This document shows, in pieces, positions 1 to 2,809 of a DNA stretch of 23,832 bases. Below the pieces are notes generated by a model. That model was not told the origin of the DNA, searched no databases, and saw only the letters and a program-made list of their open reading frames with translations. The DNA is taken from positions 1-23,832 of IMG/VR virus record IMGVR_UViG_3300033553_000833; one strand, given 5' to 3'. Source of the stretch: a virus. Every line of letters begins with the position of its first letter. Positions within the stretch are counted from its first letter, which is position 1. The position numbers were made by a program, and so were the translations under genes.

Positions 1-153
1 TTAATTGGCCACTAACACGCGCTGAGTAAAGCGCCAGTTGGCCAGGCGCTGGTTGTCCAGAATGCCGCGCTCTTTCATGGCGCGGATCAGTTTGCGAGGG
101 CCCAGGTTCAGCAGCTTGGCGGCTTCCTGGAGCGTGATGGTTTCCGGAATCAT
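1..153 (-). CDS. Small KilAC-like helix-turn-helix protein (50 aa)
   Basis: This complete short frame runs from an ATG at 153 to a TAA that is the first three bases of the window. The translation begins MIPETITLQEAAKLLNLG and continues with a helix ending MKERGIL. That is the pattern of the KilAC domain found at the C-terminus of phage antirepressors (an 'EAAKLL' helix, then 'LRE.GIL'). The C-terminal part of a typical KilAC domain is short or missing here. The ATG overlaps the stop of the LuxR-type gene upstream in an ATGA junction, so the two are probably translated together. A DNA-binding accessory regulator is the likely role. The family call rests on motif resemblance only; it could also be an excisionase-like mini HTH. 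Confidence 0.55.
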   Translation of the reverse strand: MIPETITLQEAAKLLNLGPRKLIRAMKERGILDNQRLANWRFTQRVLVAN

Positions 154-584
154 GCGGCCTCCCTGTCTCCGGTGTGGAGATCTGCACCGTTGTTGAGCTG
201 GATGATTGGGTGGTCGTCGGCATCCCGACGGTTGGAAACCCGCACCCGGGCAACTCGCGGTGTGCGGACAGTGGCTGGCTGGTCGCCGGTACCGGGCATG
301 GCATTGCCCAGAATCAACAGGCCGATAGCCAGTTGCCGGGCTTTTACCAGGCCGTTCTTGAACGCGCGGCTGATCAGCAGTTGCCGGTTTGGTGCATCGA
401 AATTGCGGAGCAACCGCGCCATGTGAAACTTCACCGTGCCGAGCGTGATGCCCAGCAACATGGCAATGGAGTCGTTCTCTTTGCCTTCCACTACCCAGAC
501 CAGAACCTGCCGCTGGCGCGGGGTGAGGGTGTTGTCTGGGTCGTGGATTTCGAATTCTGAGCCGCTAAAAGTAGTCATACGCAT
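150..584 (-). CDS. LuxR-type HTH regulator with hydrophobic C-terminal segment (144 aa)
   Basis: Residues about 20-75 form a LuxR/GerE-type HTH, with LTPRQRQVL opening the domain and a GTVKFHMARLL recognition helix. No receiver or autoinducer domain precedes it. After the HTH comes a hydrophobic stretch (LAIGLLILGNAM, about residues 86-97), then a basic, polar tail. Small LuxR-like proteins of this shape are known from Pseudomonas-type prophages. The hydrophobic stretch may be a membrane anchor or just a buried helix. Two starts are possible, ATG 584 or ATG 578; a GCGGAT-type Shine-Dalgarno sits near both. The gene is coupled to the small KilAC-like gene by ATGA and read away from the AT-rich 585-718 stretch. 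Its targets are unknown. Confidence 0.7.
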   Translation of the reverse strand: MRMTTFSGSEFEIHDPDNTLTPRQRQVLVWVVEGKENDSIAMLLGITLGTVKFHMARLLRNFDAPNRQLLISRAFKNGLVKARQLAIGLLILGNAMPGTGDQPATVRTPRVARVRVSNRRDADDHPIIQLNNGADLHTGDREAA

Positions 585-718
585 ATCCGCGATTACGTTT
601 AGTTATATTGCGAAAGGTAGCGTTATACTAATCAGCAGTCAAGAAAAGTGGTGTTATTTTTTGCTTTTTGTGGAGGATTAAGAAATTGGTGAGTAGGCGA
701 GGGCGGTGATTTGGGCAT
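585..718. other. AT-rich intergenic stretch upstream of LuxR-type gene
   Basis: There is no plausible gene in this stretch. It is clearly more AT-rich than its surroundings and must contain the promoter of the leftward LuxR-type gene. TATAAC-like hexamers occur on the minus strand (around 601-606 and 620-626), but I could not pair them with a convincing -35 box at normal spacing, so no promoter is placed. Confidence 0.4.
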
Positions 719-777: not shown

Positions 778-1194
778 CTAAGGAGCAGAACTCGGCTCAA
801 GCCTTTCTAGCGTCTTTATGGCTTCTTGCAATGATTCGAGCTGAAAATCGTCGTCTATCAGAAAGTCCGCGATAGTGGATTGGAGCTTGTTTTGATCTTC
901 CGTGGAGGGGAGGTTTGGAGCGCACTCCGTAGTTGCTAGTTGGTCTGAGATGCGCTTCAGATTGTCTAGCTGTGCATTGAGCAATGACTCGGCCTCAGCC
1001 AATCTCCTGCGCTTGAGTTCTAGTTGTTGTTGGGCTGCTTTGGTGTCGATCACAGCAGACTTCAGTTCGAGTTTATATTTGTCATACTCCAAGGATATGC
1101 TCGACGCCATGCCTGCCAAGACTATAATCGCCGTCGTGGCTGCTGCCATGCATAAGCTGAGCGTATACCAAAAAACGTTAGGGATATTGTGCAT
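778..1194 (-). CDS. Membrane-anchored coiled-coil protein, function unknown (138 aa)
   Basis: The protein has one strong hydrophobic segment near the N-terminus (about residues 8-30, including MAAATTAIIVLAGMASSIS). A long charged helix follows, with heptad-like leucines (about residues 35-90, e.g. LELKRRRLAEAESLLNAQL), then an acidic C-terminus. The layout fits a single-pass inner-membrane protein with a coiled coil on one side. It is the last gene of the leftward repressor group and has a strong terminator after it, so it is probably expressed in the lysogen. A superinfection-exclusion or other lysogenic-conversion role is possible from position alone. No family is recognised. The ATG is preceded by a GAGG element about 9 nt upstream. 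Confidence 0.7.
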   Translation of the reverse strand: MHNIPNVFWYTLSLCMAAATTAIIVLAGMASSISLEYDKYKLELKSAVIDTKAAQQQLELKRRRLAEAESLLNAQLDNLKRISDQLATTECAPNLPSTEDQNKLQSTIADFLIDDDFQLESLQEAIKTLERLEPSSAP

Positions 1195-1251: not shown

Positions 1252-1647
1252 TCAGCTCTTCGGCATGGCTTCAAGCATTTGCGTTAACGCTGAAGCAAGC
1301 TCCGGGGTCAATTGGCCAGATTCTGTCAGCTGGCTTTGTCTATGAATCAAGTCCGCGTGTTGTTGTGATGCTTGGATCATTGCCAGCACTGAACGTTCGA
1401 GGCTGGTGTTATCGTTGCCAAGCTTTGGACCTTCTCCAAATGCCAGCCACCAGAAATTGAATCCGGTGATTGCTGACAGTTCCTTGATATGATCAATTTG
1501 AATTCCGCCGCGTCTCGTCCAGTTCAGGACGGAAGTTCTGGCAACGCCAATTTTGTCAGCAATCCGACTCATGGGGACGCCGGATATTTTGATGGCCTCT
1601 CGAATTCTCTGGGCTCTGGTTAGCGTCGGCTCGGATTTGTCGGCCAT
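1252..1647 (-). CDS. Third tandem CI-like HTH repressor paralogue (131 aa)
   Basis: An N-terminal Xre/CI-type HTH (about residues 8-60) contains the recognition region VARTSVLNWTRRG and the downstream signature FWWLAFGEGPK. A short C-terminal helical region ends in LTPELASALTQML. There is no LexA/S24 peptidase domain, so RecA-stimulated self-cleavage is not expected. The ATG at 1647 is chosen over an upstream TTG (1662) because GAGAGA lies 7 nt before it. The start lies 92 nt inside the end of the second paralogue. The closest relatives in the window are the two genes just upstream. A phage repressor or modulator role follows from family and place. Confidence 0.85.
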   Translation of the reverse strand: MADKSEPTLTRAQRIREAIKISGVPMSRIADKIGVARTSVLNWTRRGGIQIDHIKELSAITGFNFWWLAFGEGPKLGNDNTSLERSVLAMIQASQQHADLIHRQSQLTESGQLTPELASALTQMLEAMPKS

Positions 1648-2065
1648 GGGCGGGTCTCTCAATGGTTCTTTGTATGGTGCCTTCCAGGAACTGAGTAAGA
1701 TGTCTTGCCATGTCAGTGGTCAGGACTCCCGCTTGGGTGCTCTGTGTCAGGATATCAATCAGTGCGGCGTGTTCGTTAGATGCTGTTGCAACGCGATCGG
1801 ACGAGATCGCGTGCTGGCTCAGGTCAGTATCATCTTTCGAATGCTTGGGCCCTTCACCGAACGCAAGCCACCAGAACCGATAACCTGTTATGTCTGCCAG
1901 GCCTCTCAGGTTATCTACTGTTATGGCTCCGCGCTTTTTCCAATTGAGTACAGATGTGCGGGATGCAGATAGCAGGCTGGCTATCTCGTGAGCTTTGAGC
2001 GGCCCATTTTCAATGGCTTCAGTGAGGCGTGCGGCTCGTCCGTCCGTGGTATTTAGGTCTGTCAT
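1556..2065 (-). CDS. Second tandem CI-like HTH repressor paralogue with extended C-terminus (169 aa)
   Basis: The HTH (ASRTSVLNWKKRG) is followed by the same FWWLAFGEGPK signature and a C-terminal LTTDMARHLTQFL motif as its neighbours. The ATG at 2065 overlaps the TGA of the first paralogue (ATGA), so the start is well supported. The two sister proteins end 8-12 residues after the LTQ motif. This one continues for 44 residues, in a different frame over the start of the third paralogue, as a polar Arg/His-rich tail ending ESDC. A TGA in another frame at 1659-1661 lies where the stop would be expected, so a one-base indel probably caused the extension. It is a DNA-binding repressor by family. 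Confidence 0.8.
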   Translation of the reverse strand: MTDLNTTDGRAARLTEAIENGPLKAHEIASLLSASRTSVLNWKKRGAITVDNLRGLADITGYRFWWLAFGEGPKHSKDDTDLSQHAISSDRVATASNEHAALIDILTQSTQAGVLTTDMARHLTQFLEGTIQRTIERPAHGRQIRADANQSPENSRGHQNIRRPHESDC

Positions 2066-2472
2066 TCGTCCTTTCTGGTCGTTGCAAATGCATTCAGGGT
2101 TTGTGTCAGCCCCTCGGCGGCAGCAGGGGTCAGTATGCCGGCATGTGTTAGGTGCGAGATGCACTCTGCAAAGCGGGCATGCTCTGGTGAGCACTTTGAA
2201 ATACTCATTAATGGGTTGTCGAACTCTGCGCTGTCTTCCGTGCTGGAGTAGGTTTTGGGGCCCTCTCCGAAGGCAAGCCACCAAAAGCGATAACCGGTCA
2301 GCTGGGCAAAGCCGCGAAGGTTGTCCAGATTAATGTTTCCTTTCTTTTTCCAGTTCAGCACAGATGTGCGGGCTACTTTCATCGTGTCAGCGATCTCGCT
2401 CATTGCGAGAGGGCCGTTCTCGATGGCTTCCCGGATTCTTGCAGCTCTGGCATCAAAGTCTCGTTCATTCAT
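2062..2472 (-). CDS. First tandem CI-like HTH repressor, candidate master repressor (136 aa)
   Basis: This is the promoter-proximal member of the three paralogues and faces the rightward Cro-like gene, the position of lambda cI. Its HTH has the recognition region VARTSVLNWKKKG, followed by FWWLAFGEGPK. A small C-terminal region (SPEHARFAECISHLTHAG, then LTQTL) is shared with the sisters and may mediate dimerisation. There is no peptidase domain, so induction probably does not use the LexA-like route. The ATG at 2472 has no clear Shine-Dalgarno, but a TAATAT box lies exactly 6 nt upstream of the A. This suggests a leaderless mRNA, as for lambda cI from pRM. Confidence 0.87.
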   Translation of the reverse strand: MNERDFDARAARIREAIENGPLAMSEIADTMKVARTSVLNWKKKGNINLDNLRGFAQLTGYRFWWLAFGEGPKTYSSTEDSAEFDNPLMSISKCSPEHARFAECISHLTHAGILTPAAAEGLTQTLNAFATTRKDE

Positions 2473-2478
2473 AACGCA

Positions 2479-2507
2479 ATATTAGCCTTTTACTACTTCC
2501 CAAGTAA
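2479..2507 (-). promoter_or_regulatory. Candidate leaderless promoter of the repressor operon (pRM-like)
   Basis: On the minus strand, TTACTT (2507-2502) and TAATAT (2484-2479) are spaced 17 bp apart. The predicted start falls on or next to the A of the ATG at 2472. The -35 is weak, as expected for a maintenance promoter. Inferred from sequence only. Confidence 0.45.
2494..2506. promoter_or_regulatory. Candidate operator palindrome TACTT-CCC-AAGTA
   Basis: A perfect inverted repeat with 5-bp arms and a 3-bp centre overlaps the -35 and spacer of the repressor promoter. A further ACTT half-site occurs at 2517-2520. It is a natural binding site for the neighbouring HTH repressors or the Cro analogue, but the true operator unit is not proven. 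Confidence 0.45.
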
Positions 2508-2518
2508 GACAAACAAAC

Positions 2519-2547
2519 TTGATCAAAAATTAGGATGACGCTACTCT
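2519..2547 (+). promoter_or_regulatory. Candidate rightward early promoter (pR-like)
   Basis: TTGATC (2519-2524) and TACTCT (2542-2547) are separated by 17 bp. The start would be near 2554, giving a short leader with GGAGG before the Cro-like gene. The -35 box lies in an 8-bp palindrome TTGATCAA (2519-2526), a possible second operator. The same TACTCT -10 is found in the late promoter at 5424-5429. Confidence 0.5.
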
Positions 2548-2572
2548 ACTAAAGCTTATTCGGAGGATGCGT

Positions 2573-2809
2573 ATGACTGATTGTGTTTTTGACCAGGTGG
2601 TTGAGTGCCTGGGGACGAAAGTTGAGGTGGCTCGCGTATGCGGTATCAGGCCGCCCACGCTTCAAGGTTGGACAAGAATTCCTGCTCATCATGTGTTGGC
2701 CCTCGAGGAAGCGATTAAAGAGAGGGGTGGCGAGATCGATCGCTACTCCATGCGGCCAGATATTTACGGCCAGTCTCCAGAGTCTACCGAGCAGGCCTCG
2801 GTGGCATAA
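2573..2809 (+). CDS. Cro analogue, YdaS-type HTH protein (78 aa)
   Basis: This is the first gene of the rightward early operon. The protein matches the YdaS/Cro-like pattern: an HTH with VEVARVCGIRPPTLQGW, then IPAHHVLALEEAI, then a Tyr-x-x-Arg-Pro-Asp-Ile-Tyr motif (YSMRPDIYG) typical of this family. Start choice: GGAGG (2562-2566) touches an upstream ATG at 2567 and sits 6 nt before the ATG at 2573, so 2573 is preferred. By position and family it should repress the divergent repressor promoter and favour lytic growth, like lambda Cro. The C-terminus (SPESTEQASVA) looks disordered. Confidence 0.85.
   Translation: MTDCVFDQVVECLGTKVEVARVCGIRPPTLQGWTRIPAHHVLALEEAIKERGGEIDRYSMRPDIYGQSPESTEQASVA

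Follow-up and report, generated by a model that had tools for sequence, protein, structure and literature searches.

A phage is usually credited with a single immunity repressor, specific to its own kind. The locus described here, from a Marinobacter temperate phage, carries three related repressor genes side by side, which raises the question of where the additional copies came from and what a temperate phage would gain by keeping them. The window, i.e. the whole stretch of DNA analyzed, is the 23,832-base virus record IMGVR_UViG_3300033553_000833, a fragment whose relatives measure 36–38 kb. From sequence comparisons, we consider it probable that the first gene (A) is the resident repressor, that the other two (B and C) are extra repressors from other lineages lodged in a cargo slot, and that B, and probably also C, broadens superinfection immunity.

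Three adjacent repressor genes on one strand

An earlier note, made from the sequence of this DNA, had described three tandem paralogs in a leftward operon position, and three consecutive ORFs were indeed found on the minus strand, tightly packed and in the same direction. Gene A (2062..2472) encodes a protein of 136 aa, gene B (1556..2065, with ATG at 2065) one of 169 aa, and gene C (1252..1647, with ATG at 1647 or alternatively TTG at 1662) one of 131 aa. The stop of A and the start of B share an ATGA, and the first part of C lies within the 3′ end of B, with an overlap of 92 nt. The tail of B comprises about 30 residues encoded at 1556–1647, where C begins in a different reading frame, and is missing in the relatives of B. 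No consensus promoter was found for gene A, and by eye only a weak −10-like TAATAT could be seen just before its ATG.

Searching the record with A as query returned only A, B (51% identity, E-value 1.6e-38) and C (46%, E-value 1e-31). All three are full-length paralogs in which a linker joins an HTH domain to a helical C-terminus, and they share, as had been claimed, the RTSVLNW recognition helix and the FWWLAFGEGPK signature; relatedness of the C-terminal halves is recognizable but weak, with 29–38% identity. The PF07022 (Phage_CI_repr) HTH profile matched B (25.5 bits) and C (27.4 bits) above its curated cut-off of 22 bits, with A just under it (21.2 bits). The AlphaFold2 model of A (mean pLDDT 78) comprises a five-helix HTH domain with the recognition helix at residues 35–44, a disordered linker (72–85) and a C-terminal helical hairpin (96–110 and 116–134). 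Its fold matches, namely Clostridium 3ivp, 186 CI, SinR and an SPC32H-type repressor, were all weak, none having an E-value <0.001. The HTH domain resembles that of phage 186 CI (PDB 2fjr) weakly both by profile and by fold, whereas the short C-terminal hairpin is unlike the C-terminal domain of 186 CI. A cleavable repressor of the LexA/lambda CI type was rejected, because the profile search found no S24 or LexA-type peptidase domain in A, B or C, in agreement with the earlier note, and the C-terminus is a helical hairpin.

Copy number, ancestry and selection

The family is practically limited to Marinobacter. It is represented in phage AS1 (67%) and, at a greater distance, in phage PS3, as well as in some 20 viral contigs; when 124 genomes were searched as the genus of M. 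koreensis, a few of these had it too. One copy is the normal state for a phage, as had been supposed: among the relatives whose downstream sequence could be read, about 20 have a single gene and one has two, compared with three in the window, a count that leaves out L006, L008 and L021, whose contigs end just behind the repressor. The sole two-copy relative is a Marinobacter koreensis prophage (L063), which has a B-type gene followed by an adjacent C-type gene and is without A. Searches for more arrays at the family and order levels revealed no other array.

Because A, B and C are adjacent, on the same strand and of the same family, they could be taken for products of local tandem duplication and divergence within the window phage, and the earlier note had proposed a tree for dating the duplications. 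The tree instead placed the three genes in three separate outside lineages: A groups with the single-copy repressors of L004 and L064 (M. maroccanus), with support of 99/96, B with L020, L022, L023 and the B-type gene of L063 (90/100), and C is sister to the M. koreensis C (100/99). Approximately unbiased (AU) tests rejected a single clade for A+B+C (p-AU 6e-87), A+B (3e-4) and B+C (3e-5). With these rejections, and with a closer outside relative for each copy, in situ duplication was ruled out as a candidate under the tree model used, and we regard it as extremely improbable. Because the three genes fall in separate clades and joint clades are rejected, the array, as judged from the trees, is not a product of duplication here; it was either assembled from separate lineages or keeps very old paralogs that were lost elsewhere. 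A search of viral contigs with C alone found no relative, its only close relative being that in M. koreensis, and a plasmid search with B gave no match.

Another explanation is that B and C are leftovers of an immunity-module exchange, in which an A-type cI/cro module was recently gained and the old repressors have not yet been lost. Such an event would fit the start of B falling right on the stop codon of A, the odd tail of B running into C, and the occurrence of decayed repressor remnants in other Marinobacter genomes (L060 and L067). It is opposed by the state of the two genes, which have no internal stop codons and show synonymous sites near saturation at low nonsynonymous divergence: compared with its nearest relatives, the N-domain of B gave pS 0.77–0.85 and pN 0.11–0.14, and the N-domain (HTH) of C gave pS 0.74 and pN 0.13 against its nearest relative, although this selection may predate the arrival of the genes. 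The operator in the LuxR-operon promoter (see below) is also A-type, so that a swap would have to cover two places. We consider a leftover of exchange decidedly unlikely. Judging from these values, strong purifying selection has acted on both B and C, which are kept as proteins, though much of the divergence may have preceded their arrival in the window phage; decay of the duplicates, which the earlier note had named as an outcome that would undo its reading, was thereby ruled out. The remnant in L060 (8210–8572) is an A-type repressor gene with a stop and frame changes, and that in L067 (392–607) is a truncated B-type piece.

A separate pattern was seen among the repressors of L008, L011, L013, L014, L015, L018 and L035. 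Their DNA-binding halves are 97–100% identical at the protein level, with synonymous sites often widely diverged (pS 0.70 and pN 0.00 for L008 and L018), and their C-terminal halves are 49–77% identical (pN 0.15–0.33), suggesting that operator specificity is kept in this set and that the C-terminal domain changes quickly.

Operators and specificity residues

Operators were sought by an unsupervised palindrome scan of the gaps between repressor and cro. The top spaced palindrome in A-clade gaps was TTAG-N7-CTAA, present in 13 of 15 phages and in seven of nine non-redundant ones, compared with at most two in 30 shuffles. Among B-clade phages, the gaps of L020 and L022 each have GTTGA-N7-TCAAC twice; only four phages define this B-type class, and in L023 and the M. 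koreensis prophage the sites are asymmetric half-site variants such as GCTTA-N7-TCAAC. The same division was found at the promoter of the downstream LuxR-type operon, where seven of the nine A-type phages read have TTAG-N7-CTA (compared with 2.6% of background windows), and L020 and L022 have GTTGA-N7-TCAAC, matching their own gap class.

Three putative A-type operators were located in the window, with scores from weight matrices that were applied, here and below, to the same sites they were trained on. One lies on the A-gene side of the gap (2481..2497, ATTAGCCTTTTACTACT, score 18.2). The second lies on the cro side (2529..2545, score 13.1), between a −35-like TTGATC and a −10-like TACTCT identified by eye, and the third lies in the promoter of the LuxR-type operon (616..632, score 17.1), filling the 17-bp spacer between TTGACT and TACCTT. 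The cro-like gene on the opposite strand (2567..2809, plus strand; YdaS-type HTH, PF15943, E-value 2.6e-11) belongs to the A-type subgroup, with 76% identity to the cro of L004 and 74% to that of L064. These operators, together with the A-type cro beside A, argue for A as the resident repressor. No B-type operator was seen in the 23.8-kb fragment, the best score being 9.7 compared with mostly 16–23 for known sites; the part of the phage genome outside the record might still contain such sites. With B in the B clade and the cro and operators of the window being A-type, B belongs to an immunity group other than that of its carrier.

Thirteen positions in the HTH domain separate the A and B clades. 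A agrees with the A clade at 11 of them and C at nine, and B agrees with the B clade at six and with the A clade at two. The informative positions lie at the start of helix 2 (24–25) and immediately ahead of the recognition helix and at its beginning (32–34); the RTSVLNW core is common to all, and these residues may set specificity. A near-identical recognition region does not imply the same specificity, as flanking positions and operators both differ between A- and B-type phages.

The common RTSVLNW helix, the A-like specificity residues of C and the tight packing of the genes in one direction would also suit a joint action of A, B and C on the phage's own operators, with mixed dimers or competition tuning the lysis–lysogeny decision. 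The C-terminal, presumably dimerizing, halves are, however, just 29–38% identical, about 20 relatives manage without extra copies, and the residues and ancestry of B are those of phages with the other operator; we therefore consider joint action unlikely. Among the roles listed in the earlier note, those of recognizing several operators and of acting against heteroimmune phages gained support from the different operator of the B-clade phages, and that of hetero-oligomeric repressors falls under this less favored alternative.

Operator-like sites of the B type were additionally noticed between a Q-like gene and a lysozyme gene, at the same place in L063 (position 6096 in its oriented sequence, score 18.7) and L022 (position 1711, score 13.8). 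They may possibly mark a fourth controlled promoter, or have arisen by chance.

The cargo slot and the proposed role of the extra repressors

Gene order was the same in all relatives read: cro on the opposite strand, the repressor, a variable slot, and then genes for a LuxR/GerE-type protein, a KilAC-type antirepressor-like protein and a PrtN-like protein. L020 and L022 have nothing in the slot, which holds genes of 371, 112 and 159 aa in AS1 and L004, a PDC-M19B candidate defense gene in L005 and L066, C in the M. koreensis prophage, and other genes in other relatives. In the window it holds B, C and a 138-aa membrane-anchored protein. Because other phages hold cargo in this same slot, B and C can be said to sit at a cargo position. 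PADLOC and Pfam searches of the slot cargo identified one candidate defense gene (PDC-M19B) and one STAS-like DUF4325, the rest being without assignment. The 138-aa coiled-coil-like protein is encoded downstream of C (778..1194, minus strand) and shares 48% identity with the product of the same-slot gene of M. oulmenensis (L066), which adjoins the candidate defense gene there; it gave no family match beyond a weak spanin match, and no relatives of its gene were found in viral contigs. A close described counterpart is the AS1 repressor (AS1_42, MK088078), which is of the same family and in the same place, with A-type operators and a LuxR-antirepressor-PrtN operon downstream; unlike the window, AS1 has one copy.

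The nearest precedent for a repressor of a lineage other than that of its carrier is in mycobacteriophage LRRHood, whose gp44 is a case of 'repressor theft': a repressor from another group is carried as cargo by a phage without its binding sites, and protection of infected cells from superinfection was proposed, though not proven (Pope et al. 2011, PMC3029335). Gene B in the window is similar in being of the B clade in a carrier with A-type cro and operators; its expected sites were not seen in the 23.8-kb fragment, though they may lie outside it. C likewise belongs to a clade apart, although in no phage was it found as the sole, resident repressor. LRRHood differs in that it is not temperate, has no resident repressor and carries one recent copy, >99% identical to Bxb1 gp69 (PMC3029335), whereas in the window a resident repressor is followed immediately by two further members of its family, both diverged, and the B–C pair recurs in a second prophage. 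We found no precedent for tandem or second repressors in the open-access literature beyond LRRHood.

Under the reading of B and C as cargo repressors, A would maintain the prophage through the three A-type operators, i.e. at its own start, at cro and at the promoter of the LuxR-antirepressor operon. Co-transcription of B and C with A is probable, in keeping with the ATGA coupling of A and B. B would be expected to bind GTTGA-type operators and thereby shut down phages of the B immunity group that enter the cell, and C, with its A-like specificity residues, may give or strengthen immunity to A-type phages. A broadening of immunity by C would be clearest in the M. koreensis prophage, where the resident repressor ahead of it is of the B type; the C of the window would duplicate the range of A or modulate A, and where it repeats the specificity of A, heteroimmunity alone is no explanation. 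The likely benefit would be a lysogen with immunity against competitors of more than one kind. If this is true, keeping the repressors of other groups under selection behind its own would offer a temperate phage a simple way to shut out rivals; as the genes occur singly, in pairs and in threes, and two operator classes can be read, the idea is directly testable. More tentatively, and with somewhat less than even confidence, we suggest that Marinobacter phages of this group assemble heterotypic repressor arrays in the cargo slot behind the resident repressor, such that one lysogenic transcript would provide immunity toward several operator classes together, and that the B–C pair moves between phages as a cassette that broadens immunity.

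The downstream operon begins in the window with the LuxR/GerE-type HTH gene (150..584, minus strand; PF00196, E-value 8.5e-15), whose place is conserved in all relatives, followed by the start of the KilAC-type antirepressor-like gene (1..153, minus strand; PF03374 at its cut-off), which is cut by the contig end. The LuxR/GerE, KilAC antirepressor-like and PrtN-like operon is conserved, and for each operator class that was confidently read a repressor operator stands at its promoter; the operon could act as a switch for induction without repressor cleavage.
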